Origin: Chloroflexota bacterium
GTDB lineage: Bacteria > Chloroflexota > Limnocylindria > QHBO01
Direction of reading: 5' to 3'
NCBI GenBank assembly: GCA_040902225.1
Contig: JBBDXT010000002.1
Span: 280,036 to 344,035, forward strand
DNA: 64,000 nucleotides
Both the position numbers and the translations under genes were made by a program. The notes below the pieces were generated by a model, which had not been told where the DNA came from, did not search any database, and saw only the letters and a program-made list of their open reading frames with translations. This document shows positions 18,049-33,021 of this stretch, one piece after another; position 1 is the stretch's first letter; each line of letters starts with the position of its first letter.

Positions 18049-19700
18049 GCGGACTGGTCGTCCGCGGCGGGCGCGTCTTCGCCGGCGGACACCCCGGCTC
18101 GGCAGCGCTCGGCGGGCGCGCCACCGGCCCGATGGCAGATGGAGCCCCGACCGCCGTGGCCATCAGCGGCGACCGGATTATGGCCATCGGCACCGATCGC
18201 GACGCGGACGGATGGAGCGGCCCCGACACGGAGGTGATCGAAGCGGACGGCGGCCTCATCCTGCCCGGCTTTAACGATGCGCACACCCACCTGCGCTGGG
18301 CACCCACCACCCTGAGTCGCCTGGACCTGTTCGGGATTACCGACCTGAGCGACGTCCAAGTTGCGATCCGCGCCTTCGCGGCGGCGCATCCGGAGCGCGC
18401 GTGGGTCGCGGGACGCGGCTGGCTGTACGCCGCCTTCCCTGGCGGCATGCCGACGCGCGAGCAGCTTGACGCGGCGGTCCCAGATCGTCCGGCCTATTTC
18501 GAGTGCTTCGACGGCCATTCCGGGTGGGCGAACTCGCTCGCGCTGACGGCCGCCGGCATCGACGAACGAACGCCTGATCCGGTGAACGGGCAGATCGTGC
18601 GCGACACGGGCGGGCAGGCGACCGGGGCGCTCCTCGAGCGCGCCACAGAGGCGATCGAGGCGCTCATCCCGCCCCCGTCGGCCGACGAGTCGCTGGCGCT
18701 GCTGCGCGCCGGGCTGACCGCCATGGCCCATGCTGGCATCACCGCCGTCCAGGATGCGTGGGCCCGCGAGGAGGGTTTCGCGACGCTTGATCGATTACGT
18801 GACGCTGACGGCCGGCTGCCGATCAGGGTCCGGTCGGCGCTCGAGATGCTTCCCGGCCAGGGAGAGGCGGGACTCCGCGCCATCCTCGACCGCTATGAGT
18901 CGACGGTCGCCCCCTACCGCAATGACCCATGGTTGCGGGGCGGGATCCTGAAGTCGTTCATCGATGGCGTGGTGGAGGCCCACACGGCCTCGCTGCTGAC
19001 CCCGTATCCGGGCTCCACGACCCGCGGCGACCCCCGGTGGGCTGAGGAGGAGTTGCGATCCGCCGTGGCCGAGGCTCACGGACGCGGATGGCAGGTCGAG
19101 CTGCACGCCATCGGCACCGCCGCCGTGCGGCAGGCACTGGACGCCTTCCAGGCGGTAGGGCCGGGGCGCGCGGCCGAACGGCGGCATCGGGTCGAGCACA
19201 TTGAGACGATCGACCCTGCCGACCTGGGTCGCTTCGCGGAGCTCGGGGTGGTGGCCAGCATGCAGCCCTTCCACGGGTTTCCTGAGGCGGGCCAGATGGC
19301 CGTCTGGGAAGGCGCCCTCGACCCTGAGCTCGCAGCCTCCGGCTGGCGAATCGGGAGCCTCCTGCGCTCCGGCGCGCCGATCGCGTTCGGCAGCGACTGG
19401 CCGGTCGTTCCGTACGACCCCTTCCTCGAACTGCACGCGGCGGTGACGCGTACCACAACCGACGGGCAGCCGGCGGGTGGCTGGCTGCCGGGCGAAGCGA
19501 TCGGGGTGGCCGATGCGATGGCCGCGGCAACGTGGGGCAGCAGCTATGCCGAGCATGCCGAGACGGAGCGCGGGGCACTGCAGGTCGGCCGCCTCGCCGA
19601 CCTGATCGTGCTTGACCGGGACCTGCTCAGCGAGGGGCCATCGGCGATCCTCGGCACCCGGGTCACCGCGACGGTGGTCGGCGGACGGATCGTGCCGTGA
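18045..19700 (+). CDS. Amidohydrolase (YtcJ-like, amidohydrolase 3 family)
   Basis: 551 aa. N-terminal beta-sandwich, then TIM barrel with the metal motif GFNDAHTHLRW, histidines in QVELHAIGTAA and RRHRVEHIETI, and Asp in FGSDWPV. C-terminal GALQVGRLADLIVLDRD is typical. Hydrolyses an amide or related bond; substrate unknown. No signal peptide, so cytoplasmic. It is coupled to the phosphoesterase before and AlaX after, each by 4-bp overlap. Confidence 0.85.
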   Translation: MSGLVVRGGRVFAGGHPGSAALGGRATGPMADGAPTAVAISGDRIMAIGTDRDADGWSGPDTEVIEADGGLILPGFNDAHTHLRWAPTTLSRLDLFGITDLSDVQVAIRAFAAAHPERAWVAGRGWLYAAFPGGMPTREQLDAAVPDRPAYFECFDGHSGWANSLALTAAGIDERTPDPVNGQIVRDTGGQATGALLERATEAIEALIPPPSADESLALLRAGLTAMAHAGITAVQDAWAREEGFATLDRLRDADGRLPIRVRSALEMLPGQGEAGLRAILDRYESTVAPYRNDPWLRGGILKSFIDGVVEAHTASLLTPYPGSTTRGDPRWAEEELRSAVAEAHGRGWQVELHAIGTAAVRQALDAFQAVGPGRAAERRHRVEHIETIDPADLGRFAELGVVASMQPFHGFPEAGQMAVWEGALDPELAASGWRIGSLLRSGAPIAFGSDWPVVPYDPFLELHAAVTRTTTDGQPAGGWLPGEAIGVADAMAAATWGSSYAEHAETERGALQVGRLADLIVLDRDLLSEGPSAILGTRVTATVVGGRIVP

Positions 19701-20413
19701 CGGAGAACCTGGCCTACACCGATGCCTACGCGACATCCACGGAGGCACGCGTGCTGAGAGCCGATGACGGTGCGGTGCTCCTCGATCGCACCGTCTTCTA
19801 TCCCGGTGGCGGTGGCCAGCCGGCGGACACGGGCTGGCTGCGGACCGATGCCGACGCCGCGTGGCGCGTCACCGGCGCACGCAAGTCCGGCGACGAGGTC
19901 TGGCACCTGGTGGAGGGCGACCTGCCGCCTGTCGGAACACAGGTGAGCGCCGAGGTCGACTGGGAGCGACGCCACGCGCTGATGCGGACCCATTCGGCGC
20001 TCCACGTGCTGTGCGGCGTCATCTGGCGCGACTGGGGAGCGTCCGTGACCGGCGGCAACATGGAGCCGCTGGCCGGTCGCATGGACTTCGAGTTCGAGAC
20101 GATGGCCGGCGAGCTGGTCGCGGAGATCGAGCGCCGCGTGAACGTGGAGATCGAGGCCGACCGCGAGATTCGGGTCGCCCTCCTGCCGCGCGACGAGGCT
20201 TTTGCCATTCCCGACCTAATCCGCACCAAGATCAACCTGCTGCCGGAGGGGATCAGCGAGGTGCGAACGATTGAGATTGTCGGCCTTGACCTCCAGGCCG
20301 ATGGTGGGACCCACGTCTCCCACACCGGCGAGATCGGCCGGGTGCGGGTCACCGGCTACGAATCCAAAGGCCGCATCAACAAGCGGATCCGGATCGAGGT
20401 CCTGGAGGCGTAG
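19697..20413 (+). CDS. Alanyl-tRNA editing protein AlaX-type
   Basis: 238 aa. Stand-alone relative of the AlaRS editing domain, which hydrolyses mischarged Ser- or Gly-tRNA(Ala). Visible: FYPGGGGQPADTG in the N-terminal domain, H-x3-H in RTHSALHVL, and GGTHVSHTGEIG near the C-terminus. The position before GGTH that is Cys in canonical AlaX (CGGTH) is Asp here (ADGGTH), so one zinc ligand is changed. GTG start overlapping the amidohydrolase stop by 4 bp. Last gene before a family 1 array. Confidence 0.85.
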   Translation: MTENLAYTDAYATSTEARVLRADDGAVLLDRTVFYPGGGGQPADTGWLRTDADAAWRVTGARKSGDEVWHLVEGDLPPVGTQVSAEVDWERRHALMRTHSALHVLCGVIWRDWGASVTGGNMEPLAGRMDFEFETMAGELVAEIERRVNVEIEADREIRVALLPRDEAFAIPDLIRTKINLLPEGISEVRTIEIVGLDLQADGGTHVSHTGEIGRVRVTGYESKGRINKRIRIEVLEA

Positions 20414-20438
20414 CCTCGGACCCAAGGGTCGGGGTCCG

Positions 20439-20555
20439 ATAAGCGCCAGTTATCGTCCTGCACCGATGGCGCGGCATCCGTGCCGTGGAATGAGTCCCGC
20501 TTATCAGGCGGCACCGCCACGGGCGGATCCGTGCAGGAGCATAAGCCTGCCTTAT
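20439..20555. repeat. Family 1 palindrome array, copy 2
   Basis: All five elements are at the standard spacing. 15-mers: ATAAG-N5-GTTAT (20439-20453), ATGAG-N5-CTTAT (20490-20504), ATAAG-N5-CTTAT (20541-20555). 22-mers: CACCGAT-N8-ATCCGTG (20461-20482), CACCGCC-N8-ATCCGTG (20512-20533). Linkers are all 7 nt. Begins 26 bp after the AlaX stop. The rest of the 300-bp gap (20556-20713) shows nothing recognisable. Confidence 0.9.
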
Positions 20556-20713
20556 ACAAGGCCACGAGCGCGAGCGCTGCATCGGGGAGTCTGGAAGACC
20601 GATCGCAAGCGCTGCGACATGACGCTGGCATCCGTCTCTGCGATCCTTCTTGAGCCGACCGGCCGCGGCGAGGCCGAGCCGGCGCAATATCCGATTCGAA
20701 TGAGGTGACCATC

Positions 20714-21193
20714 ATGGACGACCAGAAGGCGATCGAGCGCTATCTGTACCTGCTCCGGACGGCACCGCCGGATGAAATCGAGCGTGCGCATGAGGAAGCG
20801 TTCTCACGGCTGACACCCGAGCAGCGTGCCCAGGTGCTCCAGGAGCTGTCCCAGGAGGTCCCAGCCTCGGAGGTCCCAAATGGCGACGACCCAGGTTCAT
20901 TGGCCCGCATGGCGACCCGCGCAGAGATGCGCGAGCCCGGAACCCTGGAGCGGACGTTCGGCAGGATGCAGGGACCTGGCTTCGGCGGGATGTTCCTGTC
21001 CGGCCTGGCCGGTGCGTTCGTGGGGACTGCGATCGCCGGCGCCGTCTTCGACGACTCGGATCCGGACGCCGGAGGTGATCCTGGCGGCGATAGTGATCCT
21101 GGCGACGCGGCGGAGGCCGATGTGGGCGGCAGCGACTTCGGGGGTGACTTCGGGGGCGGCGATTTTGGGGGCGGCGACTTCGGAGGCATCTGA
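20714..21193 (+). CDS. Conserved hypothetical protein with Gly-rich tail
   Basis: About 159 aa from ATG 20714, which has GAGGTGA 4 nt upstream; a GTG at 20705 is the alternative. Helical N-terminus (AIERYLYLLRTAPPDEIERAHEEAFSRLTPEQRAQVLQEL) resembles a widespread actinobacterial-type protein of unknown function. It is followed by one hydrophobic Gly/Ala segment (MFLSGLAGAFVGTAIAGAVF) and an acidic Gly-rich tail with repeated DFGGG units. No function can be assigned. Confidence 0.65.
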   Translation: MDDQKAIERYLYLLRTAPPDEIERAHEEAFSRLTPEQRAQVLQELSQEVPASEVPNGDDPGSLARMATRAEMREPGTLERTFGRMQGPGFGGMFLSGLAGAFVGTAIAGAVFDDSDPDAGGDPGGDSDPGDAAEADVGGSDFGGDFGGGDFGGGDFGGI

Positions 21194-21196
21194 CCG

Positions 21197-21715
21197 ATGA
21201 ACGTCTGGGAGGCGATCAACTCGGTGCGCGTCATCCGCGACTTCGCCGATCGCCCGCTCTCCGCCGAGCACGAGGCACGCATCCTGAACGCGGCCCGCCG
21301 CACCGGCAGCTCCAAGAACGAGCAGACGTGGGCGTTCATCGTGATCCGCGACCGCGATCACCTGCGGGAGCTGACCGGGGTGGGCCGATACGCCGATCAC
21401 CTGGCCGGCGCGGCGATGGCGGTCGCGCTCGTCACCCCCGATGAGAGCGCCGGGTGGCGAAACACGCGGATGTGGGACCTCGGACGGGCCGCGCAGAGCA
21501 TGGTCCTGGCCGCCTGGGAGCTCGGCATCGGCAGTGCGCCTGCCACGGTCTTCGAGCAGGAGCTGGCGTCACGCTTGCTCGGACTGCCGGCCGACCGACG
21601 CTGCAACTACCTCCTCTCGTTCGGCTACGCCGCCGACCCGTCGCAGCTCACCGCTCCGAGGAAGCGCGGGGGCCGCAAGCCGCTGGAAGCCCTAGTTCAC
21701 GAGGAACGATGGTAG
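21197..21715 (+). CDS. Nitroreductase family protein
   Basis: 172 aa. N-terminal WEAINSVRVIRDFADRPLS (FMN-binding R-x-x-R/I-x-x-F region) and the helix AAQSMVLAAWELGIGSAPATVF, with a typical C-terminal R-K-P-L-E-A-L. FMN-dependent NAD(P)H oxidoreductase of unknown substrate, slightly short for the family. Starts 3 bp after the Gly-rich protein gene, so probably co-transcribed. Confidence 0.8.
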   Translation: MNVWEAINSVRVIRDFADRPLSAEHEARILNAARRTGSSKNEQTWAFIVIRDRDHLRELTGVGRYADHLAGAAMAVALVTPDESAGWRNTRMWDLGRAAQSMVLAAWELGIGSAPATVFEQELASRLLGLPADRRCNYLLSFGYAADPSQLTAPRKRGGRKPLEALVHEERW

Positions 21716-21761
21716 GACTCGCTTGGCCGGCGACCCGGTCGCCAGGCAGCGGCCCGTGTCG

Positions 21762-23163
21762 CTACGAGGCTGGCTCGTCGGTGGGCGGGCACAACTCCGC
21801 GTCGGCGCAGAAGGCCGGGAGGCCGTTCACGATCGTGGCGATGACCGTCATGGCCCGGATCTCGTCCGGCGTCGCATTGCTGACGTCCCCGCTCAGGATC
21901 GTGACGTCGCCGAGCGTGCCCGGGGCGAGGTGACCGCGGCGCGCCTCGTCGCCCAGGGCGTAGGCTGCGTCGATGGTCACGGCTCGAAGGCCCTGCTGGG
22001 CGGTCAGCAGCTGGGCAGCCATCCACGCCGGCGGCTCGGGGTACACGCGGCCCAGCGGGTCCATGCCGCCCGCGATCTGGTCCACCGGCCGGCCGATGTC
22101 GTCGGTCATGATGAAGTCGGAAGATCCAAGGCGCGTCCGTGGCCCCGGCGACGTGGAGACCTGCGTCCGCGAATTCCCGCCAGCGGGTCAGCCAGGCCGT
22201 CTCGCCACCCAGGTCCGCCAACGCATCCGGCTCGCCCAGCCAGTCGGCAACGGCGGTGTCCAGGTGAATCACCACAGGGATCTGCATGGCGACCATCCGC
22301 TCGAGCTGGGCATCCGTCACCTGGATGGCGTGCTCGATCCGGTGGCGGAGCGGGTTCGGCCCGGTCGGGCCGAGCGTCGCCTCGAGGGCATCGAGGACCA
22401 TCTCCTGAGCCTCGGTGCGCATGGCATGGACCGCGACCTGCCACCCGGCCTCGTTCGCCGCGGCGATGGTGCGGTTCAGCTCATCCGCCTCCCACAGGAG
22501 GTCCAGCTTGGCACCGTGGTCGAGATGGATCTTCAAGCCCTGGACGCGGAGCCGGTCGGTAATCGGGCCCGGTTCGCGGTCGGCGTACCAGTCGCCGAAA
22601 TGGGCACCGCCGATCGACGGCTCGTTCAGGGCGAGGTAGGCGTCCACCCGCAGCGGGAGGGCCTCATCGGCGGCCAGGCCCTCCAGCTCGGTGAGCCGCT
22701 CCGGGTTGACCCACAGCTCGGCGATCGAGGTCCAGCCGCGCTCGAGGGCCGCCTGCATGGCTTCGGAAGCCGAATCCAGGCCGTAGTACCCGCGGTCCCC
22801 GATCCAGTGGGCGTGGGCGTCGATGAAGCCGGGGTACGCGACGTTCTGACCGATGTCGATGACCGGCACCTGGTCACCCGCGAGCGCCAGCACCTCGTCC
22901 CGGGAGCCGACCGCGGCCACCGTTCCGTTCTGGATGAGGAGGGAGTCGGCGACGGGCGGCTCGTCCATGGTCACGATCCTGCCGAGGATGACGAGTGAAC
23001 CGGCCTGGGATGCCGAGGCGGATGGGGTCGCGCTGGGGGCCGCCGCCGACGACGACGGGGAGCTCGTGGAACTCGGGGCGCAGCCGGCGACGACGATCGT
23101 GGCGAGCACGACCGCCACCACGGCAGTGAGCCGCGTGCGGAAAGCTGCTTCGAGGGCGGTCAA
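21762..23163 (-). pseudogene. Amidohydrolase lipoprotein, frameshifted (paralog of 27189-28529)
   Basis: Reads as one amidohydrolase 3-type lipoprotein only if a frameshift near 22118-22124 is repaired. From a TTG start at 23163 with GGAGGGG upstream: signal peptide LTAVVAVVLATIVVAGC (lipobox VAGC), a Ser-rich linker, barrel with GFIDAHAHWIGDRGYYGLDS and HRIEHAIQVTDAQL, up to ATDAPWIF. The rest (MTDDIGRPVDQIAGG...) continues in another frame to 21762. Against the intact paralog, two single bases are missing within about 6 bp (GTCCGG to GTCGG, AAGG to AAG). Either a decaying gene or an assembly error. Own promoter with TTGAAC at 23218-23223. Confidence 0.75.
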
Positions 23164-23217
23164 CTCAGCCCCTCCGGTGCGTGGCTTTGTGAAAAGAGCA
23201 TTCCGGGGAGCCGAACT

Positions 23218-23223
23218 GTTCAA
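23218..23223 (-). promoter_or_regulatory. Putative ECF-type -35 element (TTGAAC) before amidohydrolase 1
   Basis: GATTGAAC on the minus strand, shared with the upstream regions of sigma genes 1 and 2 and, as TTGAAC, of amidohydrolase 2. A GA(A/C)TC-like segment follows 14 to 16 nt downstream. Suggests these genes form one ECF regulon. Confidence 0.45.
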
Positions 23224-23245
23224 TCGGTCCCGGCCTGTATGCAGT

Positions 23246-23271
23246 GCGGGCGGCCCGAGCGGGCCGCCCGC
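23246..23271. terminator. GC hairpin after anti-sigma 1
   Basis: Perfect 11-bp stem GCGGGCGGCCC with 4-nt loop, 24 bp past the anti-sigma gene end. There is no U-tract on either side. Near-identical hairpins follow anti-sigma genes 2 and 3. Confidence 0.5.
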
Positions 23272-23294
23272 GCATCGGTGAGGGTCGCGATCGG

Positions 23295-24230
23295 TCAGGG
23301 TGCCTCGAAGGTGGCCGACTCGGCGAGGGTCCGCATCTCTTCGACGAGGTCGACCGGTGTCGCCGGGCCGTATGTCGCATCGAGGATCACGATCGCGCCG
23401 TTCACGTCCAGGATCCACAGCTCGTCGACCTGGCCCGCTCCCTGGGCGTTGCGCGCCTCTCCAGTTTCCCCCTCGACCCCATAGAAGGCGAACACGTCGT
23501 TGTCGCAATCGGCGAACTTTTCCTCCCGGCTCGCGTTCGGCAGGTCGAACGACATCGGCACGTGGAGCGTGATCGTCTTGCCGGCGAACCCGCCCACAGT
23601 GACGTCCACCGGCGCCGTCGCGTCGGTCGACGCCTGGGCCGCGAAGGCCGCGGCGATCTCGTCGGGCGTGGTGGCGGGCGTCTCCGGGATGGTCGTGGAC
23701 CACTGGCACGGATCTCCGTACACGTTGAACCCGGTCCCGGCTGGCCATGCCCACGCGAGCAGCGCAGCGCCAACGGTTTCCGGCGCGTCCAGGCCGTCGT
23801 CGTCCTTGCTCAAGGCATCGAATTCCGGCAATGGGACCCAGCCGGACGACGCGATGTTGACCGTGACCTGCACGGGGTCATCGGTCCCAGTGACCACGAA
23901 CGGGCCCTCGGGGATTCCAACCCAGGCCGACGGGGCTGGCTCGGAGGGCGCCTGAGATGGCGCGACCGATTCCGGCCCTTCGCCGCCCGGCGCCGTCGAG
24001 CCAGGCAGCAGGTTGGAGGCGATGACCGCGATCACCACCACGGCGGCGGCGGCCAAACCCATCTTGAGATATCGGTTCATGTCGGATGTCCTCCACGGAC
24101 CGATGAAGGCCCGCTGTCGTGTCTGTTCCATGCGATCGCGCACCTCGTCGTACGACGGGTCGGGCAACTCCATCGGCCCCTCCGCGAGGAAGGAATGGAT
24201 CAGCCGATCGAGGTCTCGATGTGCGCTCAT
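23295..24230 (-). CDS. Membrane anti-sigma factor-like protein 1
   Basis: 311 aa. N-terminal cytoplasmic helical part (LIHSFLAEGPMELPDPSYDEVRDRMEQTRQR), one transmembrane segment (MGLAAAAVVVIAVIASNLLPG, about residues 50-72), a Pro/Ser/Ala linker and a C-terminal extracytoplasmic domain ending in PVDLVEEMRTLAESATFEAP. Overlaps sigma gene 1 by 4 bp, the usual layout of sigma/anti-sigma pairs. It lacks the HxxxCxxC zinc motif of classic anti-sigma factors. The N-terminus and membrane segment are nearly identical to those of pair 2. Confidence 0.7.
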   Translation of the reverse strand: MSAHRDLDRLIHSFLAEGPMELPDPSYDEVRDRMEQTRQRAFIGPWRTSDMNRYLKMGLAAAAVVVIAVIASNLLPGSTAPGGEGPESVAPSQAPSEPAPSAWVGIPEGPFVVTGTDDPVQVTVNIASSGWVPLPEFDALSKDDDGLDAPETVGAALLAWAWPAGTGFNVYGDPCQWSTTIPETPATTPDEIAAAFAAQASTDATAPVDVTVGGFAGKTITLHVPMSFDLPNASREEKFADCDNDVFAFYGVEGETGEARNAQGAGQVDELWILDVNGAIVILDATYGPATPVDLVEEMRTLAESATFEAP

Positions 24231-24790
24231 GCCATTCGCCCCTGGGATGACGACGCCCGGGCATCAGCCTCGAGGCTGGCCTGGAGCGCGCGCTTGGCGT
24301 GGTACATGCGGGACTTGACGGTCCCAAGCGGTATGCCAATGCGGTCCGCCACCTCGGGCAGCGGTAGCCCGAGGAAGTGGTGAAAGACGAGGACCGCGCG
24401 CTGCTCGACGGTGAGCCTCCGGAAGGCCCGGTCGAGCTGGTCGCGATCGTCGACGGTCAGGTAGGGATCAGGCCCGCTCGCGGGCTCGACCGAGATGAGC
24501 CGGATGCCCTCCGTCCAGCGCCGGCGGCGCCTGGCCTCGGCGTAGCAGGCGTGGGTGAGGATCCGGTGCAGCCACGGCTCGAAGCGGTCGGGGTTCCGCA
24601 GGGCCCGAATCTCGGTCCATGCGGTTAGCAACGCGGTCTGGACGGCGTCGTCGGCAAGGTCGAAATCGCGCAGAATTCGGAACGCGATCGCCATGCAGCG
24701 GTCACCGGCCGTGCGGGCGAGTTCATCGAAGGCCTCTCGATCACCTCGCTGCGCCGGGCCCACCAGGTCCGCGTGCACCCATTCCTCCAA
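24227..24790 (-). CDS. ECF RNA polymerase sigma factor 1
   Basis: 187 aa from TTG 24790 (LEEWVHADLV), chosen because the paralog at 26520-27083 starts MEGWVQATLV at the same place and has the same length. Sigma region 2 (DREAFDELARTAGDRCMAIAFRILRDFDLADDAVQTALLTAW) and region 4 (LTVEQRAVLVFHHFLGLPLPEVADRIGIPLGTVKSRMYHAKRAL) are clear. Directs polymerase to alternative promoters when released by its membrane partner. TTGAAC at 24859-24864 upstream suggests autoregulation. Confidence 0.85.
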   Translation of the reverse strand: MEEWVHADLVGPAQRGDREAFDELARTAGDRCMAIAFRILRDFDLADDAVQTALLTAWTEIRALRNPDRFEPWLHRILTHACYAEARRRRRWTEGIRLISVEPASGPDPYLTVDDRDQLDRAFRRLTVEQRAVLVFHHFLGLPLPEVADRIGIPLGTVKSRMYHAKRALQASLEADARASSSQGRMA

Positions 24791-24858
24791 GGCCGATGAG
24801 TCTTGTCGCGCCCGATCTGGACGCGATCGGACTACAGAGTTCCCGACCCAGCCTGTCG

Positions 24859-24864
24859 GTTCAA
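24859..24864 (-). promoter_or_regulatory. Putative ECF -35 element (TTGAAC) before sigma 1
   Basis: Part of a 20-bp segment (24849-24868) matching 17 of 20 bases with that at 27137-27156 before sigma 2: CAGATTGAAC then AGGCTG on the minus strand. Lies about 60 bp before the start codon. Confidence 0.5.
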
Positions 24865-24953
24865 TCTGCAATGCGGCCAGGCCACCGGGCAAGATATCCT
24901 GCCTCGGCGCCGTCGTATCGGCGGCGCCATGAGCCTGCGCGGCTATTCCGAGC

Positions 24954-25547
24954 ATGAGGACACACGACGTGCCTCAACATCGTCAACATCGTCGGACGGC
25001 GGCCTGCGTGCTCGTCGGGCTTACCCTGACCCTGGCGCTAGTTGCATGCGGGGACATTGCCCCAGGCCCGTCGGCAGGGGATGACTCGGCTTCCGCCGCT
25101 TCACCCGGCGCGGACCCCAGCACAACGACCATCGACCTTGCCGCGATCGCCTGCGCCACGGACGATCCCGAGGACGTCGGCGAGCTGACGGGCGCCTGGT
25201 CGGGAAGTGAAGGCGGCGTGTACTACATCCGCCAGGTCGGCGATTGCGTGTGGTGGTTCGGGACCGAGATTGAGCATATTGAACCGGGGCTGACCGAGCA
25301 GCGAGGGTTTGCCAACGTCGCCAGCGGGCGCGTGGACGGCACCCGCCTCGAGGTCGAGTACGCTGACCTTCCGGTTGGCAACATCCTGGGGGGCGGCGGA
25401 CTCACATTCGCCTACGACGAAGAGAACGGCACGCTCACGCTGACTGAGCACCGCGGCGACTGGATTCCCTTTGGCGGCTCGGTGCTCACGCGCATCGAAC
25501 GGAATGCAAGTCCCGATGCGAGCCCGAGCGCGGCGTCAAGTCCATAG
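24954..25547 (+). CDS. Putative lipoprotein
   Basis: 197 aa. Signal peptide with lipobox LVAC (VGLTLTLALVACGD), a low-complexity Ser/Ala/Asp linker, then a small beta-rich domain with GELTGAWSGSEGGVYYIRQVGDCVWWFG and LTRIERN. The W-x-G...Y-x-I-R-Q pattern resembles small extracytoplasmic ligand-binding folds, but no family is recognised. It stands in reverse orientation between sigma modules 1 and 2, where modules 1 and 3 have an amidohydrolase lipoprotein. TATCCT at 24895-24900 could be its -10 box. Confidence 0.7.
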   Translation: MRTHDVPQHRQHRRTAACVLVGLTLTLALVACGDIAPGPSAGDDSASAASPGADPSTTTIDLAAIACATDDPEDVGELTGAWSGSEGGVYYIRQVGDCVWWFGTEIEHIEPGLTEQRGFANVASGRVDGTRLEVEYADLPVGNILGGGGLTFAYDEENGTLTLTEHRGDWIPFGGSVLTRIERNASPDASPSAASSP

Positions 25548-25553
25548 GTGATT

Positions 25554-25580
25554 GCGGGCGGCCCATCTTGGGCCGCCCGC
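25554..25580. terminator. Bidirectional GC hairpin
   Basis: Perfect 11-bp stem GCGGGCGGCCC with 5-nt loop, between the convergent lipoprotein gene (ends 25547) and anti-sigma 2 (ends 25606). Same stem as 23246-23271. No U-tract. Confidence 0.55.
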
Positions 25581-25605
25581 GCATCGGTTCCGGGGTCGCG
25601 ATCGG

Positions 25606-26523
25606 TCAGCGCACTTCGAACGTGGCCGACTCGACCATGGCCCGCATCTCCTCCACGTCCTCGGCCGGCGTGTCCGCAAAGTAGCCGGCGTCGAAGAAGA
25701 CGAGCGTGCCGTCGACGTCCACGACCCAAACCTCGTCGATCTGGCCCGGTCCCTGGTGGAAGCGGGGAGCTTCGTCGCCCGAGTCCGACACCTCCATCAG
25801 GGTGCGGAACTCGCCACCGTCGCAGTCGGTGAACACCGCGTCCTCCGGGACGTGAAGGGTCAGCATCTTCCCGGGATGCCCGCCCACGGTCACGTCGACC
25901 GGCGCGGTGGCGTCCCGCGAGGCCTGGGCCGACAGGGCCGCGACCAGCTCATCGAGCGAGGCGGCCGGGTCGTCCGGCCGGGTCGACTCCCACGCGCAGG
26001 GGTCCCCATAGACCAACATGCCCCCGCCAAAGACGACGAGCCCGGCACCCTGCGGCGGGCCGGCCATGCCGTGCTTCTCGACGCCGGTGTAGGTCAGAAG
26101 CCCGTGCCAGTCGGGAGCCGGGATGGTGACGGTCGTTCGCACATCGAAGAGTTGCTCGTAGACCAGGACGAACGGCCCTTCGCTGAGGGGGCCATACGAC
26201 GGCTCCGGGGCGGTCGGCGTCGGACTCGGCCTCGGGGTTGCGGTGGCCGACGGCTCGGCCGATTCGCTGGCGCCGGGACCGCCGGTATTGGAGTCGCCGA
26301 GGAATTGGAAGCCGACGACGGCGATGACCACCACCGCCGCGGCCGCAAGGCCAATCTTGAGAAGTCGGTTCACGTCTGGTGTCCTCCACGAGCCGATGAC
26401 GGCCCGCTGTCGTGTCTGTTCGATTCGATCACGAACCGCGTCGTAGACCGGGTAGGGCAGCTCATCCAGGCCCTCGTCGAGGAAGGCGTGGATCAGCCGA
26501 TCGGGATCTCGAGACGCGGTCAT
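25606..26523 (-). CDS. Membrane anti-sigma factor-like protein 2
   Basis: 305 aa. Same plan as protein 1: LIHAFLDEGLDELPYPVYDAVRDRIEQTRQRA, membrane segment GLAAAAVVVIAVVGFQFLG, linker of Thr/Pro/Ser repeats, then the extracytoplasmic domain with YGDPCAWESTRPDDPAASLDELVAALSAQASRDATAPVDVTVGG, close to the CQWSTTIPETPATT and PVDVTVGG segments of protein 1. Overlaps sigma 2 by 4 bp. The divergence is mostly in the sensor part, as expected for duplicates with different inputs. Confidence 0.7.
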   Translation of the reverse strand: MTASRDPDRLIHAFLDEGLDELPYPVYDAVRDRIEQTRQRAVIGSWRTPDVNRLLKIGLAAAAVVVIAVVGFQFLGDSNTGGPGASESAEPSATATPRPSPTPTAPEPSYGPLSEGPFVLVYEQLFDVRTTVTIPAPDWHGLLTYTGVEKHGMAGPPQGAGLVVFGGGMLVYGDPCAWESTRPDDPAASLDELVAALSAQASRDATAPVDVTVGGHPGKMLTLHVPEDAVFTDCDGGEFRTLMEVSDSGDEAPRFHQGPGQIDEVWVVDVDGTLVFFDAGYFADTPAEDVEEMRAMVESATFEVR

Positions 26524-27083
26524 GCCCTTCGCTCCTGGTTGGTGGACGAGCGGGCATCAGCCTCGAGGCTGGCCCGCATCGCCCGGGTCGCGTGGTGCAG
26601 GCGGGACTTCGCGGTCCCGACCGGAATACCAATGCGCTCAGCCACCTCGGAAATGGGAAGACCGAGGTAGTGGTGGTAGATGAGGACGGCGCGCTGCTCG
26701 ACGGTGAGCCTGCGGAAGGCGCGTTCGAGCTGATCGCGATCGTCCACGGTCAGAGTGTCGTCGAGACCGTGCACGGGATCGACGTGGAGGAGCCGGATGC
26801 CTGCCGCCCAGCGCGTGCGATGCCTGGCCTCGGCATAGCAGGCGTGGGTCAGGATCCGATGGAGCCACGGTTCGAAGAGATCGGGGTTTCGCAGTGAGCG
26901 CAGCTCGCGCCAGGCCGTGATGAACGCGGTCTGGACGGCGTCCTCTGCCAGATCGGCATCGCGCAGGATCCGAAACGCGATGGCCATGCAGCGGTCGCCA
27001 ACCATGCGCGCCAGCGAGTCGAACGCTTCCGCGTCCCCTCGCTTGGCCTGGTCGACCAGCGTTGCCTGCACCCATCCCTCCAT
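26520..27083 (-). CDS. ECF RNA polymerase sigma factor 2
   Basis: 187 aa, ATG start. Region 2 (DAEAFDSLARMVGDRCMAIAFRILRDADLAEDAVQTAFITAWREL) and region 4 (LTVEQRAVLIYHHYLGLPISEVAERIGIPVGTAKSRLHHATRAM) closely match sigma 1. Autoregulation through the TTGAAC at 27147-27152 is likely by analogy. Confidence 0.85.
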   Translation of the reverse strand: MEGWVQATLVDQAKRGDAEAFDSLARMVGDRCMAIAFRILRDADLAEDAVQTAFITAWRELRSLRNPDLFEPWLHRILTHACYAEARHRTRWAAGIRLLHVDPVHGLDDTLTVDDRDQLERAFRRLTVEQRAVLIYHHYLGLPISEVAERIGIPVGTAKSRLHHATRAMRASLEADARSSTNQERRA

Positions 27084-27146
27084 TCCGTGAACTGACCGGT
27101 CCTGGTGGACGCGATCAGACAGGAGAGTCCTGGGGGCAGCCTATCT

Positions 27147-27152
27147 GTTCAA
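27147..27152 (-). promoter_or_regulatory. Putative ECF -35 element (TTGAAC) before sigma 2
   Basis: Minus-strand CAGATTGAAC followed by AGGCTG, then GGACTC 16 nt after TTGAAC. Matches the sigma 1 upstream region. Confidence 0.5.
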
Positions 27153-27188
27153 TCTGGGTGGAAGTGCGCCGACCATCGGCGGGCAGAC

Positions 27189-28529
27189 TTATCCCTCGGG
27201 AAGCGAACAGACCTCCGGTCCGGCGCAGAACTCGACCACACCGCCGATGATGGTGCCGATCACGGTCATGGCCCGGATCTCATCCGGCGTAGCGGTGGTG
27301 ACGTCGCCGCTGAGGATGGTGACGTCGCCCAGCATGCCAACTGCCAGTTGGCCGCGACGCCCTTCGTCCCCCAGCGCGTAGGCAGCGTCCAGGGTTACCG
27401 CCCGCAGGCCCTGCTCGGCGGTCAGCAGCTGGGCGGCCATCCACGCCGGTGGCTCGGGGTAGACCCTGCCGATGGGGTCCATGCCGCCGGCGATCTGGTC
27501 TACCGGCCGGCCGATGTCATCGGTCAACTCGAAGTCCGGAAGGATCCAGGGCATGTCCGTCGCGCCCGCCGCGTGCAGCCCGGCGTCCACGAAGTCCCGC
27601 CAACGGGCCAACCACGAAGTCTCCCCGCCCATCGCCGCCATCCAGTTCGGTTCGCTCAGCCAGTCGGCCACCGCGGTGTCAAGGTGGATCACCACCGCGA
27701 TCTCCATGGCGACCATTCGCGCCAGCTGGGCATCGGTCACCTGCACGGCATGCTCGGTCCGGTGGTGGAGCGGGTTCGGCCCGCTCGGACCAATGGCCGC
27801 CTCGAAGGCGTCGAGGGCCATCTCCTGGGCCTCGTCACTGAAGGTGTGGATGGCGACCTGCCAGCCGGCCTGGCTGGCCCGGACGACCGTGGGGGTCAGC
27901 TCGTCAGCCTCCCACAGGAGGTCCAGTTCGAAGCCGGTATCGAGATGGATCTTCAGGCCCCGGACACGGAGGTGGTCACTGACCGATCCCGGTTCGCGGT
28001 CGGCGTACCAGTCGCCGAAGTGTTCGCCGCCGATCTGCGGCTCGTTGAGCGTGAGGTACGCGTCCACCCGCAGCCGGAGGGCGTTGTCGGCGGCCAGGGT
28101 CTCCAGCTCGGTGAGGCGTTCCGGGTTGACCCATTGCTCGGAGATCGACGTCCAGCCCCGGCGGAGCGCCGCATCCATGGCTTCCTCGGCGGAATCGAGG
28201 CCGTAGTAGTCGCGGTCGCCGATCCAGTGGGCGTGGGCATCAATGAATCCGGGGTACGCCACGTTCTGACCGATGTCCATGACCGGGACGTGGTCTCCGG
28301 CGAGCGCCAGCACCTCGTCCCGGGAGCCGATTGCGGTCACGGTTCCGTTTTCGATGAGGAGTGCCTCCGCGATGGGCGGCTCGTCCAAGGTCACGATCCG
28401 GCCGACGATGACCACGCTCCCGCCCTGCGGCCCAGCGCTGGCTGTTGGCGAGCCGCTCGGGGCCGGACCGCTTGGCACGCAGGCGGCGAGTGCGACCACG
28501 GCAGCGAGGATGAGAACGCGTTTGGACAT
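27189..28529 (-). CDS. Amidohydrolase lipoprotein (intact paralog)
   Basis: 446 aa from ATG 28529 (MSKRVLILAAVVALAACVPSG); lipobox LAAC predicts membrane anchoring outside the cytoplasm, unusual for amidohydrolases. Metal motif GFIDAHAHWIGDRDYYGLDS, later HRTEHAVQVTDAQL and GATDMPWILPDFEL. C-terminus TPDEIRAMTVIGTIIGGV. Likely hydrolyses an external amide or ester. Lies after anti-sigma 3, separated by a GC hairpin and with its own TTGAAC element, the same layout as the frameshifted copy after anti-sigma 1. Confidence 0.85.
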   Translation of the reverse strand: MSKRVLILAAVVALAACVPSGPAPSGSPTASAGPQGGSVVIVGRIVTLDEPPIAEALLIENGTVTAIGSRDEVLALAGDHVPVMDIGQNVAYPGFIDAHAHWIGDRDYYGLDSAEEAMDAALRRGWTSISEQWVNPERLTELETLAADNALRLRVDAYLTLNEPQIGGEHFGDWYADREPGSVSDHLRVRGLKIHLDTGFELDLLWEADELTPTVVRASQAGWQVAIHTFSDEAQEMALDAFEAAIGPSGPNPLHHRTEHAVQVTDAQLARMVAMEIAVVIHLDTAVADWLSEPNWMAAMGGETSWLARWRDFVDAGLHAAGATDMPWILPDFELTDDIGRPVDQIAGGMDPIGRVYPEPPAWMAAQLLTAEQGLRAVTLDAAYALGDEGRRGQLAVGMLGDVTILSGDVTTATPDEIRAMTVIGTIIGGVVEFCAGPEVCSLPEG

Positions 28530-28558
28530 ACGTAAATGATTCCTCGACAGGGCGCATT

Positions 28559-28564
28559 GTTCAA
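28559..28564 (-). promoter_or_regulatory. Putative ECF -35 element (TTGAAC) before amidohydrolase 2
   Basis: TTGAAC on the minus strand, followed after 16 nt by GAATCA and then the ATG at 28529. Parallels the element before amidohydrolase 1. Confidence 0.4.
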
Positions 28565-28576
28565 GACGAGAGCAGG

Positions 28577-28606
28577 GCACGGGGGGCCCTGGTGGGCCGC
28601 CCGTGC
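28577..28606. terminator. GC hairpin after anti-sigma 3
   Basis: GCACGGG-GGCCC stem (13 bp, one mismatch) with a TGGT loop, immediately after the anti-sigma 3 stop. No U-tract. Confidence 0.5.
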
Positions 28607-28613
28607 ATCGCGC

Positions 28614-29516
28614 CTATTCGCCGAATGAGGCGGACTGGACGATGGCCTCGAGCTCGTCGACGTGCTCCGCGGGCGTTCCCGCGTAGTACTTCGTGTTCCA
28701 GGCCACGATCAAACCGTCGATGTCGAGGACGTACACCGTGTCGATCTCGCCCGGACCACTGTGATAGCCGCACGGGGTCATGCCGTCTCCGCCGCAGTCC
28801 CAGCTACCGCCGTAGCCCGGATCGCAGTCGGTGAAGTCAACGTCGGCGGGGACCTCCAGAGTGATCGACTTTCCGGCGTACCCGTCCAGGGTAATGTCCA
28901 CCGGCTCCGAGGCATCGCGCGACGCCTGAGATGACAGCGCGGCCACGAACTCGTCCACGGTGGTCGCGGGCGTGTCCGGCAGCGTCGTCTGCCAGTGGCA
29001 TGCGTCGCCGTACACGATGTACTCCCGCTGGACGAAGATGATCATTCCCGCACCATCCGGCGGTTCGTTATTGTCGTTCTTTGCGAGGATGCCGCCACCG
29101 ACCTCCCCGTACCAGTCGGCTGGAAGCGTAACTGTGAGCGGGACGCTGTCCGGTTGCGGCGTCCCCGGCACGAGAATCATGTGCGGACCCTCGGGGAGGA
29201 GCCCCACAGGAGTCGGCTCTGCCGCGGACGGCGAAACCGACGGGGACGGCGACGGGGTTGGGTCGCCGCCAAGGCCCCCCGAACCGGGGAGAAGATTGAT
29301 CGCGACCACGGCGATGATCACGACGGCGGCGGCGGCGAGGCCGACGCGCACGATGTTGTTCATGGCAGAGAACCTCCACGCCAGCCACGAGGCTCGGCGC
29401 TGTGGGGTCGTGTCCACCTCATCGAGGACGAGGTTGAGGATGCGATCCGCGTCCTCGTAGGCGTCCTCGTGGAGCCACGACCGAACGATGCGGGTGACGT
29501 CGCGATCGGCGCTCAT
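28614..29516 (-). CDS. Membrane anti-sigma factor-like protein 3
   Basis: 300 aa. Cytoplasmic N-terminus (DVTRIVRSWLHEDAYEDADRILNLVLDEVDTTPQRRASWLAWRF), membrane segment VGLAAAAVVIIAVVAINLLPG, linker PTPSPSPSVSPSAAEPT, and an extracytoplasmic domain with YGDACHWQTTLPDTPATTVDEFVAALSSQASRDASEPVDITLDG, clearly homologous to the sensor domains of proteins 1 and 2. Its N-terminal part instead matches protein 4, so it looks like a chimera of the two subfamilies. Overlaps sigma 3 by 4 bp. Confidence 0.7.
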   Translation of the reverse strand: MSADRDVTRIVRSWLHEDAYEDADRILNLVLDEVDTTPQRRASWLAWRFSAMNNIVRVGLAAAAVVIIAVVAINLLPGSGGLGGDPTPSPSPSVSPSAAEPTPVGLLPEGPHMILVPGTPQPDSVPLTVTLPADWYGEVGGGILAKNDNNEPPDGAGMIIFVQREYIVYGDACHWQTTLPDTPATTVDEFVAALSSQASRDASEPVDITLDGYAGKSITLEVPADVDFTDCDPGYGGSWDCGGDGMTPCGYHSGPGEIDTVYVLDIDGLIVAWNTKYYAGTPAEHVDELEAIVQSASFGE

Positions 29517-30061
29517 TGCGCAGCCTTTCGCGTGGTCGAGCGTGCGTCGGCATCGAGTGCCGCTCGCAGCGCGCGCATCGCGTAATGAAGTCGAGAAGCA
29601 ACCGTCCCGACCGGGATGCCGAGTGCTTCGGCAACCTGGTCGAGCGGCAGGTCGAGGTAGTGGTGCAGGACCACCACCGTTCGGTGATCGAGGGAGAGCC
29701 GTCGGAAGCCACGATCGAGCTGGTCGCGGTTGACGACCGTATCCAGTTCGTCCGCCGCCATCGGCTCATCAGCCGGCAGCAGTCGAATGTTCGGCGTCCA
29801 ACGACGGGTCTCGCTGGCCTCCGCGTAACAGGCGCGCACGAGGAGGCGATACGACCAGGCATCAAAGCGTGCCGGGTCGCGAAGCTGAGGAAGGTCCCGC
29901 CAGATGCTCAGCAGCGCCTGCTGCGTCGCGTCCTCGGCAAGGCTCAGGTCGCGCAGGATCCTGTGCGACGCGGCAAGGAACCGATCCGCCCGCGCGGCGG
30001 CAAGGGTCGTGAATGCCCCCTTGTCGCCGTTCTGCGCGAGCTTCACGAGATCGGTGTCCAT
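29513..30061 (-). CDS. ECF RNA polymerase sigma factor 3
   Basis: 182 aa, MDTDLVKLAQNGDKGAF start. Region 2 with RILRDLSLAEDATQQALLSIWRDLPQLRDPARFDAWSYRLLVRACYAEA and region 4 with LSLDHRTVVVLHHYLDLPLDQVAEALGIPVGTVASRLHYAMRALRAAL. Same length and close sequence to sigma 4, distinct from sigmas 1 and 2. Confidence 0.85.
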   Translation of the reverse strand: MDTDLVKLAQNGDKGAFTTLAAARADRFLAASHRILRDLSLAEDATQQALLSIWRDLPQLRDPARFDAWSYRLLVRACYAEASETRRWTPNIRLLPADEPMAADELDTVVNRDQLDRGFRRLSLDHRTVVVLHHYLDLPLDQVAEALGIPVGTVASRLHYAMRALRAALDADARSTTRKAAQ

Positions 30062-30097
30062 GCCCTCTTCCGTCTAAGGCATCGGGTTCAGACCGAT

Positions 30098-30116
30098 GCA
30101 TTACACACGGTATGGG
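30098..30116 (-). promoter_or_regulatory. Shared upstream motif of sigma 3
   Basis: GCATT-A-CACACGGTATGGG (plus-strand reading) is found again, one base shorter, at 31597-31614 before sigma 4, about 35-45 bp from each start codon. Probable autoregulated ECF promoter different from the TTGAAC type. Confidence 0.5.
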
Positions 30117-30172
30117 GGCAGAGGCCGATGCCACCTTCAAAATTCGACCGATGTCGAGCATCGCTGCAGACC

Positions 30173-30201
30173 CAGGCGCCCGGCCGTCGACCGGGCGCCT
30201 G
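30173..30201. terminator. GC hairpin after anti-sigma 4
   Basis: Perfect 11-bp stem CAGGCGCCCGG with a 7-nt loop between the anti-sigma 4 stop (30227) and the sigma 3 promoter. No U-tract. Confidence 0.55.
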
Positions 30202-30226
30202 AGCGAAGAGCCGGCTACGGCGAGAA

Positions 30227-31018
30227 TCAAGGCAGCGTATCGACCGCATCCTCGGGATGGAGCGCCACGGTGGCAAGGACCTCCTCGAACCATGCCCTGT
30301 CGTAGGGAGCGACGGCGAGTGGGTCGTCGCCAGACGTATAGAGCTGGATCCAGTAGCCGCGGCCAGCGGTTGTGACGACCGCCACGTCGCAATGTCCGGC
30401 CCCGATCAGTCCCGTGCCGCCGTCGACGGCGATCGGCTCGGTCGTGCCGCACCCCTCGTCGCTCGCCATCTGCTCGGCGACCCAATCCTCGGGCGTGGAA
30501 TCGCCGATCGGCTGCGAAGCGATGGCCAGGAACAGGTCAGCCCTCAGGGTCGGGTCGTACAGCCAGTCGACTTGGGGCACCTGGAAGGAGAGGGGAAACG
30601 TGCTATCCGTCCAGGGCTCGGTCGCCGCTTGAGCGATCCATCCCTCGGGATACGACAGCGAGATCCCATGATGCGTCGAGGTGAAGCTCTGGGTCAGCGG
30701 CGGAGCGGATGCCGGCGACAGCGTCGGCTCGGCGGTCGCCGAAGGCGATGGAGTTGCCTCCGGAGGACTCCCGGTATTTGGGCCGGGTAGGAAATTGATT
30801 CCCACGACGACTGCAAGGGCGATGACAACCGCCGCGATGCCGAAGCGGACGATGTTGCTGTTCATGGGCGGGAACCTCCGCGCCAGCCAACCGGCTCGGC
30901 GCTGGGGGGTCGCGGGGACTTGGTCGAGCACGAGGTCCAGGACGCGGTCCGGGAGCGCATTCACGCCCTCGTCCATCCACGACCGAACGATGCGCTCGAC
31001 GTCGCGTTCAGTGCTCAT
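30227..31018 (-). CDS. Membrane anti-sigma factor-like protein 4
   Basis: 263 aa. N-terminus DVERIVRSWMDEGVNALPDRVLDLVLDQVPATPQRRAGWLARRF matches protein 3. Membrane segment FGIAAVVIALAVVVGINFLPG, Pro/Ser/Thr linker, then a sensor domain unlike those of proteins 1-3 (HHGISLSYPEGWIAQAATEPW...GHCDVAVVTTAGRGYWIQLYTS), which resembles PsbP/DUF1795-like folds by its SYPEGW start. Overlaps sigma 4 by 4 bp. Confidence 0.7.
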   Translation of the reverse strand: MSTERDVERIVRSWMDEGVNALPDRVLDLVLDQVPATPQRRAGWLARRFPPMNSNIVRFGIAAVVIALAVVVGINFLPGPNTGSPPEATPSPSATAEPTLSPASAPPLTQSFTSTHHGISLSYPEGWIAQAATEPWTDSTFPLSFQVPQVDWLYDPTLRADLFLAIASQPIGDSTPEDWVAEQMASDEGCGTTEPIAVDGGTGLIGAGHCDVAVVTTAGRGYWIQLYTSGDDPLAVAPYDRAWFEEVLATVALHPEDAVDTLP

Positions 31019-31563
31019 TGCGAGCCTTCCCGTCGGGTCGGGCGTGCGTCGGCATCGAGCGCCGCGCGCAGGCCGCGCATCGCGTAATGAAGTCTTGAAC
31101 GGACCGTTCCCTCGGGCACGCCGAGTGCTTCGGCGACCTCCGAGAGCGGCAGGTCGAGGTAGTGGTGCAACACCACCACCGCACGATGATCGATGGAGAG
31201 CCGCCGGAAGCCGCGCTCGAGCTGGTCGCGATCAATGACCAGGCTCGTGCCATCCGCCGTTGTCGGCTCATCAGCCGGCAGGAGTCGAAGGTTGGATGCC
31301 GAGCGACGAGTCCGGCGGGCCTCGGCGTAGCAGGCGCGCACGAGGAGCCGGTACGACCAGGCGTCAAAGCGCGCCGGGTCGCGCAGCTGCGGGAGGTCTC
31401 GCCAGACGTTCAGCAGCGCCTGCTGCGTCGCGTCTTCGGCGAGGTCAATGTCGCGCAGGATCCTGTGCGCCACCGCATGGAGCCGATCGCCCACGGCCAC
31501 GGCGAGGCTTGTGAAAGCCTCTTCGTCGCCGTGCTGCGCTCTGATCACGAGCTCGGTGTCCAT
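31015..31563 (-). CDS. ECF RNA polymerase sigma factor 4
   Basis: 182 aa from ATG 31563 (MDTELVIRAQHGDEEAF), chosen to match sigma 3. Region 2 RILRDIDLAEDATQQALLNVWRDLPQLRDPARFDAWSYRLL; region 4 LSIDHRAVVVLHHYLDLPLSEVAEALGVPEGTVRSRLHYAMRGL. A longer frame to 31617 would run through the conserved promoter motif. Confidence 0.85.
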   Translation of the reverse strand: MDTELVIRAQHGDEEAFTSLAVAVGDRLHAVAHRILRDIDLAEDATQQALLNVWRDLPQLRDPARFDAWSYRLLVRACYAEARRTRRSASNLRLLPADEPTTADGTSLVIDRDQLERGFRRLSIDHRAVVVLHHYLDLPLSEVAEALGVPEGTVRSRLHYAMRGLRAALDADARPTRREGSQ

Positions 31564-31596
31564 GCCTCGTCCGCATCGTGCGCCAGTCAGTCCGGC

Positions 31597-31614
31597 GCAT
31601 TCACACGGTATGGG
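31597..31614 (-). promoter_or_regulatory. Shared upstream motif of sigma 4
   Basis: GCATTCACACGGTATGGG on the plus strand, matching the motif before sigma 3. Confidence 0.5.
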
Positions 31615-31649
31615 CACGGGAGCGCCAGGGGCGACTCAATCTTGGCTTG

Positions 31650-31766
31650 ATAACTGCCACTTATCGTCATGCACCGATGGGGTGGTATCCGTGCCGTGGC
31701 ATTGGTCCCGCTTATCAGGTGGCACCGCCGCGGGCGCATCGGTGCAGGAGCATAAGCCTGGCTTAT
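31650..31766. repeat. Family 1 palindrome array, copy 3
   Basis: 15-mers ATAAC-N5-CTTAT (31650-31664), ATTGG-N5-CTTAT (31701-31715), ATAAG-N5-CTTAT (31752-31766). 22-mers CACCGAT-N8-ATCCGTG (31672-31693) and CACCGCC-N8-ATCGGTG (31723-31744). Linkers are 7 nt. Closest in sequence to copy 2. Sits in the divergent gap between sigma 4 and the DUF4032 gene. Confidence 0.9.
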
Positions 31767-31780
31767 GTCGAGCCTTGTCC

Positions 31781-31786
31781 TACCAT
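31781..31786 (+). promoter_or_regulatory. Leaderless -10 box (TACCAT)
   Basis: TACCAT, 8 nt before the ATG at 31795. Confidence 0.5.
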
Positions 31787-31794
31787 CTGAACCG

Positions 31795-33021
31795 ATGCGA
31801 TTCCAGATGCTGCCGCGCGGATCGTGGCCCGACTTCCTGGACCTGCCGTGGTCGGAGCCGCTGGCAGGCTGGGAGTCGCCGCGCATCGTTGAGGTGGCAC
31901 GCGGCATCAGCCGCCACGTCGTGCGCTTCGTGGACTACGACGGCCAGCTGTACGCCCTCAAGGAGCTGCCCGAGCCTCTCGCCGAGCGTGAATACCGGCT
32001 GCTGCGAGAACTGGCAGCGGAATCGGTCCCAGTGGTCGAGGCGGTCGGGGTGGTCAGCGGACGCGAGGACCTGGACGCGGCGCTGATCACACGTCATCTC
32101 GAATTCAGCCTCCCCTACCGGACCCTCTTCACCCAGCGCGGGATCTCCGACCTGCATGGCCGCCTCCTCGACGCCGTCGCGGAACTGCTGGTGCGGCTCC
32201 ACCTGGCCGGCTTCTTCTGGGGCGACTGCTCTCTCTCCAACACCCTCTTCCGGCGGGACGCGGGCTCGCTGGCGGCCTACGTGGTGGATGCCGAGACGGG
32301 CGAGATGCATCCCTCCCTCTCCGATGGGCAGCGCGCCTACGACCTGTCGATCGCCGAAGAGAACTTCGCCGGCGAGCTGCTCGACGTGATGGCGATGCTG
32401 GCCGAGCGGGGCGAGGCACCGAGCCCGAGCATCGACGACCCGCTGGCCGTCGCCGCCGAGCTGCGCCCCCGCTATCAGAGCCTGTGGAGCGAGCTGACGC
32501 GAGACGAGGTGATCAGCCCGAACGAGCGCTATCGGATTGATGAACGCCTGCGCCGCCTCAACGAGCTCGGCTTCGACGTGGAGGAGGTAGAGCTGCTCAC
32601 GGTGGAGGGTGGGTATCGCCTGCGCCTGCCGACGCGCGTCGTCGAGGCGGGCCACCATCGGCGCCGCCTGCTGAGCCTGACCGGCCTGGACGTCGGCGAG
32701 AACCAGGCACGCCGCCTGCTGAATGACATTGCGCGATATCGGGCCGAACTGGAGGCCGCCGAGGGGCGCAGCCTCCCGGACTCGGTGGTCGGCTATCGCT
32801 GGCGTGCCGAGGTGTTCGAGCCTGCGGTGGCGGCGATCCCTCCCGATCTGCACGCCAAGCGCGAGCCGGCCGAGCTCTTCCATGAGCTGCTCAACCACCG
32901 CTGGTACCGATCAGAGGCTGCGGGGCACGACATCGGCATGGCCGATGCGGTGGCCAGCTTCAGCCAGCAGGTGCTCCCCGAGGTGCCAGACGAGCGGGCC
33001 ACCATCGGCTCTTCTTCCTAG
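31795..33021 (+). CDS. DUF4032 protein with lipopolysaccharide-kinase-like fold
   Basis: 408 aa from ATG 31795, supported by the leaderless box; the alternative ATG at 31765 falls inside the palindrome array. The N-terminal half is an atypical small kinase: [21 protein letters not shown] (Lys and Glu), [14 protein letters not shown] catalytic loop, and VVDAETGEM metal-binding region. The C-terminal half is DUF4032 ([34 protein letters not shown]). Substrate unknown. Cytoplasmic. Confidence 0.8.

Follow-up and report, generated by a model that had tools for sequence, protein, structure and literature searches.

We propose that the locus studied here, which lies within a window of 64 kb (the whole stretch of DNA that was analysed), is best explained as a whole as an ancient set of ECF switches that sense at the membrane and are built of exchangeable units, and we would put the probability of this reading at roughly 0.7. 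The window comes from a genome of 2.28 Mb (7 contigs, 99% complete), whose named relatives are Chloroflexota MAGs. On the - strand, the array consists of four pairs of sigma and anti-sigma genes and two amidohydrolase (AH) lipoprotein genes, with a divergent lipoprotein gene on the + strand. Each anti-sigma gene (asf) encodes an N-terminal anti-sigma domain (ASD), a transmembrane segment (TM) and a sensor. The genes are the following.

31563-31015, - strand: sig4, 182-aa ECF sigma factor of subfamily B (Sigma70 region 2 and region 4 Pfam matches, tree)
31018-30227, - strand: asf4, B-type ASD, TM and unrelated-looking sensor
30061-29513, - strand: sig3, 182-aa ECF sigma factor of subfamily B (Pfam, tree)
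29516-28614, - strand: asf3, B-type ASD, TM and predicted PsbP/Mog1-like sensor (trees, structure model)
28581-28610: further GC hairpin (repeat D11), after asf3
27189-28529, - strand: AH2, Amidohydro_3 lipoprotein, 446 aa, intact (Pfam, metal ligands)
27083-26520, - strand: sig2, 187-aa ECF sigma factor of subfamily A (Pfam, tree)
26523-25606, - strand: asf2, A-type ASD, TM and sensor (sensor tree, internal-start analysis)
25557-25586: further GC hairpin (repeat D11), after asf2
24954-25547, + strand: divergent gene for a lipoprotein of 197 aa without assigned family
24790-24227, - strand: sig1, 187-aa ECF sigma factor of subfamily A, starting with TTG (Pfam, tree)
24230-23295, - strand: asf1, A-type ASD, TM and sensor (sensor tree, internal-start analysis)
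23248-23277, unstranded: GC-rich hairpin (repeat D11) between asf1 and AH1
21762-23163, - strand: AH1, gene for the other amidohydrolase lipoprotein, with a frameshift near 22110

Much of this layout had been recognised in a first-pass annotation of the sequence, which described four ECF sigma/anti-sigma modules with amidohydrolase lipoproteins, sigma lengths of 187, 187, 182 and 182, a GC hairpin and TTGAAC ahead of the amidohydrolase in modules 1 and 3, and a reversed lipoprotein gene in the corresponding slot of module 2. We find the modules present in tandem, the lengths correct, the hairpin and TTGAAC ahead of both AH1 and AH2, and the reversed gene in its place; TTGAAC also precedes sig1 and sig2, which had escaped that annotation. 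Two details need amendment: AH1 is split over two reading frames and so is not intact, and the array end given as 31617 is an upstream GTG, the start of sig4 being taken here as 31563. The two genes of each sigma/anti-sigma pair overlap by 4 nt, an overlap also conserved in relatives, and a search of Rfam over 20000-33000 returned no matches.

All four sigma factors match Sigma70 regions 2 and 4 in Pfam, with no region 3, and score 54.6-69.5 bits against TIGR02937 (cut-off 42.9), placing them among ECF sigma factors. The paralogue pairs 1/2 and 3/4 noticed earlier correspond to two subfamilies, A and B: sigma identity is 73% between 1 and 2, 75% between 3 and 4 and 50-54% between the subfamilies, and ASD identity is 69% and 60% within the respective pairs. 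In a tree with relatives, sigmas 1 and 2 fall in clade A (support 100/100) and sigmas 3 and 4 in the remainder (B), and the best tree joins neither sig1 with sig2 nor sig3 with sig4; a sig3+sig4 clade is rejected (p-AU 4e-4), whereas a sig1+sig2 clade, though absent from the best tree, is not (p 0.11). The first-pass annotation had read the array as a tandem amplification. The 73-75% sigma identity inside each pair would fit a recent event of this kind in the source genome, but rejection of the sig3+sig4 clade leaves it unsupported for that pair, another genome (G005) has the identical gene order sig4-asf4-sig3-asf3, and a sister species of the same genus (G002) carries a decayed array at the same place, so that we consider recent amplification very improbable. 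The flanking genes are kept in G002 (on inspecting their sequences we take them to be DUF4032-like, nitroreductase and AlaX-like), where they enclose a truncated sig3, 91% identical, which a deletion has fused to what is left of an asf2-like TM, together with sensor and AH-leader remnants. Because these remnants occupy the same place, the sequence comparison indicates that the array is older than the split between the two species and has since decayed in G002. The anti-sigma family was found in only two families of the class among the 177 genomes of the class and 400 of the phylum searched. A contig titled Steroidobacteraceae (JAICUY010000018.1; L112) holds a Chloroflexota-type module and probably derives from a mislabelled or contaminated MAG.

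The sensors have a history different from that of the rest of the array. Sensors 1, 2 and 3 are 39-47% identical, and the asf4 sensor, aligned locally to each of these three, shows no clear similarity (z about -1 to 2.5). Separate trees of the sigma factors, the anti-sigma N-termini and the sensors, proposed as a check in the first-pass annotation, agree for the first two, the ASD tree recovering clade A as the sigma tree does (support 94/92), and disagree for the third. A single clade of A-type sensors is rejected (p-AU 9e-35), and the tree of 28 sensors requires 10 changes of sigma/ASD class against a mean of 9.9 with shuffled labels. Pairwise identities correlate between sigma and ASD (rho 0.69) and between TM and sensor (0.51, Mantel p 0.0005) but not between ASD and TM (0.01) or ASD and sensor (0.08, p 0.14); therefore the joint appears to lie between the ASD and the TM. 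Judged from these trees and correlations, sensor exchange is real and class-wide, and the swapping between modules suspected earlier is borne out; elsewhere in the class, this kind of ASD is joined to Kelch repeats, AMIN-like and other domains. The direction of the swap proposed for modules 3 and 4 probably has to be reversed: because G005 and G002 have the common sensor family at the asf4 position, asf4, rather than asf3, is likely to be the recipient of a foreign sensor. Three loci (L073, L069, L071) encode the same sensor domain without an ASD, as a lipoprotein or TM protein, and may be regarded as natural stand-alone sensors. A scan of genome contigs with asf3 alone found no relatives.

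Neither a Pfam search with the four anti-sigma proteins nor a PDB sequence search with the asf profile gave anything significant. The proteins have the layout of membrane anti-sigma factors, being encoded with the sigma factor and combining a cytosolic ASD with one TM (helix 38-74 in the asf3 model). Structure prediction of the sensor, another check suggested at the outset, was carried out for asf3 (mean pLDDT 74, sensor mostly 75-96), and Foldseek placed PsbP, CyanoP, LpqN, DcrB and Mog1p among the top matches (E about 7e-4), with moderate TM-scores (0.57 by target for 2vu4). The asf3 sensor is thus predicted to have a PsbP/Mog1-like fold; members of this fold (PsbP, Mog1p, LpqN, DcrB) are 8-13% identical to it, and in the array the domain follows an anti-sigma domain. 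The ASD has about 50 residues, with predicted helices 2-15 and 23-36 (pLDDT about 60). Because it is short and modelled with low confidence, we base its putative sigma binding on gene order and co-evolution.

Systems with a class I ASD, such as RseA, RskA and ChrR (PMC7406223), have in common with the array adjacent overlapping genes, a one-TM anti-sigma factor, apparent autoregulation and sigma-ASD co-evolution. However, the class I ASD is a four-helix domain of about 100 aa recognised by ASD models, whereas that of the array appears to have two helices before the juxtamembrane/TM helix (a low-confidence prediction) and matches no Pfam family, so that we do not assign it to class I. Accessory domains are reported to be usually conserved within a group (PMC7406223), unlike the sensors of this family, which vary freely within one sigma group, and the internal RBS and start codon described below are a further difference from class I systems. 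The predicted two-helix plan would resemble that of the class II ASD of CnrY in CnrYXH of Cupriavidus metallidurans, in which two helices bind sigma4 and then sigma2; any likeness would be one of plan, the helices in the array being predicted at pLDDT about 60. Unlike CnrYXH, the array has ASD and sensor in one reading frame. The Cnr sensor, which we take to be membrane-bound and separate from the ASD, would resemble the predicted short form of the array proteins.

This short form is suggested by a feature of all four anti-sigma genes, in which GGAGG is followed after 9 nt by an in-frame ATG or GTG right before the TM.

24094-24090 and 24080-24078, - strand: internal RBS and ATG of asf1
26387-26383 and 26373-26371, - strand: internal RBS and GTG of asf2
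29377-29373 and 29363-29361, - strand: internal RBS (GGAGG), 9-nt spacer and in-frame ATG of asf3, predicted 249-aa ASD-less form
30879-30875 and 30865-30863, - strand: internal RBS and ATG of asf4

Among 55 distinct family members, 54 of which have a residue at the start-codon column, a start codon stands at the joint in 48/54 (ATG 42, GTG 5, TTG 1) and a GGAGG-type SD match with a run of at least 5 bases in 38/54; elsewhere such a match occurs at 3.2% of in-frame positions and at 3/124 ATGs. These raw counts are weakened by homologous genes being non-independent trials. The Arg encoded by the SD uses AGG/AGA in 40/43 genes against a 15% background; in the remaining Arg columns with good coverage, across the ASD and the beginning of the TM, the counts are 0-2, a contrast that this non-independence leaves unaffected. 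A held-out set of 51 additional genes, retrieved once the pattern had been recognised, has a start codon in 47/51, AGG/AGA in 45/46 and GGAGG in 42. Local RNA structure is weakest at the internal start among the offsets sampled. The SD and start codon are thus conserved beyond protein need, and the best reading of these sequences is internal initiation, yielding an ASD-less TM-sensor protein predicted at 212-261 aa. A search of open-access papers gave no relevant report on internal starts in anti-sigma genes, an absence that is no proof of novelty.

The same element might instead go untranslated, as a scar of gene fusion kept since recombination pastes new sensors at that short sequence. The coincidence of the swap joint with the internal RBS and start codon would be expected from a scar; however, the 9-nt spacer is unconserved in sequence whereas the SD, the spacing and the start codon are conserved, a few family members with a different ASD (L005, L115) retain an SD built from other codons, and synonymous constraint falls on one Arg codon only, and we regard this explanation as unlikely. 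Alternatively, an AGG-containing, SD-like sequence might slow ribosomes before the TM, aiding membrane insertion or ASD folding, with the Met being a feature of the protein. Such a role would agree with the position of the sequence directly before the TM and with AGG being a rarer Arg codon (12%), but it gives no reason to expect a start codon at a distance suited to initiation, and the few non-Met variants include GTG and TTG; we hold it to be distinctly improbable. We give slightly better than even odds to a plug-in device, common to a class-wide family of Chloroflexota anti-sigma factors, in which the sigma-bound ASD is fused, at a retained RBS and start codon, to exchangeable TM-sensor units, each gene making an anti-sigma factor and an ASD-less sensor whose ratio would set the response.

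Promoter-like sequences and leader hairpins were located as follows.

24836-24866, - strand: A-type promoter GATTGAACN5GGCTN10CTCT upstream of sig1, exact match
27124-27154, - strand: the same upstream of sig2, exact match
23195-23225, - strand: the same upstream of AH1, exact match
31634-31639, - strand: sigma-B type -35 TTGAGT upstream of sig4, with CCCATACC at 31614-31607, kept in B-type loci of other genera
30135-30140, - strand: sigma-B type -35 TTGAAG upstream of sig3, with CCCATACC at 30116-30109
31580-31598, - strand: 5' leader hairpin of the sig4 mRNA
30079-30099, - strand: 5' leader hairpin of the sig3 mRNA (GCATCGG...CCGATGC), with covariation

The exact composite A-type promoter occurs in the source genome at sig1, sig2 and AH1 only, and the reversed-pattern control had 0 matches in 8 genomes. 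A fourth exact match of the short promoter pattern, near an SSB-like gene (C4:448747), is without CTCT and was treated as chance. A two-mismatch match to the composite lies at C4:779048, and an unlinked lipoprotein gene (L083, G000:C4:915298), preceded by an A-type -35 motif with one mismatch, may be a further target. The A-type promoter is also present at the sigma-A gene in G007 (exactly) and L109, and G018 has it exactly before a sigma-A gene and before its second AH gene, the latter also with a B-like promoter. The B-type sigma genes have a common TTGA[A/G]..CCCATACC promoter, and between it and the start lies the subfamily-B leader hairpin, with compensatory changes in 4/7 pairs and 88% pairing compared with 25-52% in slid controls. 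Subfamily-A leaders likewise fold into hairpins.

AH2 matches Amidohydro_3 (PF07969, 3e-32) and has all the metal ligands (H99, H101, K193, H228, H260, D325), the HxH, Lys, His, His and Asp that it has in common with Amidohydro_3 enzymes such as 3igh and 3icj; it differs from these in being a lipoprotein of about 446 aa whose gene is tied to ECF modules. The predicted fold points to a metal-dependent hydrolase and to no more specific substrate class, and an external amide or peptide, the signal put forward in the first-pass annotation, is one candidate; an AF2 model of AH2 (pLDDT 49.6) was discarded. The AH1 frameshift may be a pseudogene mutation or a sequencing error. A sigma-asf pair immediately precedes the close AH homologues of G000 (two), G018 (a tandem pair), G365, G339 and G393, and likewise a more distant homologue in G385; distant homologues in G255, G322 and G391 are unlinked to such pairs, and in G338 the sequence ends at the gene. 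Wherever the neighbourhood is informative, the close homologues follow pairs of A, B or a third sigma type, and in G365 the AH and the asf1-type sensor are retained alongside another sigma and ASD. Because G365, G339 and the AHa gene of G018 show no A-type promoter between hairpin and AH, the enzyme may be co-transcribed there.

ECF control of the amidohydrolase, as proposed in the first-pass annotation, is supported by the A-type promoter that precedes AH1 and, in another genus, a homologous gene. The enzyme could nevertheless be a mere passenger of a variable locus, outside the switch, given that AH1 is frameshifted, that a nucleoside hydrolase lipoprotein takes the AH slot directly behind a subfamily-A pair elsewhere (L109:2861-3940) and that DUF885 genes follow anti-sigma genes in three other genomes (L061, L063, L068). 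Against this stand the exact A-type promoters upstream of AH genes in two genera and a sigma-asf-AH linkage kept across three sigma types, and we think a passenger role unlikely. AH adjoins only some of the family's sensors. Because AH1 is frameshifted in the source genome and the array has decayed in G002, the system may be dispensable. The open-access literature gave nothing relevant on ECF-amidohydrolase links, which again is no proof of novelty.

Let us then consider how such a switch might work. The ASD of the neighbouring membrane protein would hold each sigma factor until the outer domain reads a signal, whereupon the freed sigma would fire its own operon and, in subfamily A, acting on the GATTGAAC promoter, also the amidohydrolase lipoprotein genes. 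Ribosomes initiating also at the joint would make the ASD-less TM-sensor protein, and this short form might compete for the signal, or mix with the full-length form, setting the threshold; the amidohydrolase might make or remove the signal, or use a nutrient. By the sequence evidence, evolution handles two units, sigma with ASD, and TM with sensor, the latter often with an amidohydrolase behind, which join just before the TM, where nearly every family member keeps an RBS and in-frame start codon. The usual view is that the sensor domain of an anti-sigma factor stays with its sigma group. In this family a repeatedly used natural joint lets sensors swap while the sigma-ASD pair stays, and could serve as a guide for building sensor chimeras; the conserved hidden start there predicts two proteins per gene, by which ECF switches could be tuned. 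For a bacterial class about which little is known, the analysis also supplies a promoter motif and one likely member of its regulon.

Lastly, two features beside the array may be mentioned. At 18045-19700 (+) lies the gene of another amidohydrolase, which is longer, lacks a lipoprotein signal and has a weak relationship to AH2. Direct repeats of ~117 bp at 20439-20555 and 31649-31766 (+), with no Rfam match, flank an 11-kb region; they are made of TTATC/GATAA boxes, with one weak copy elsewhere in the source genome and a related copy in the sister species G002 (L170:2836-2955).
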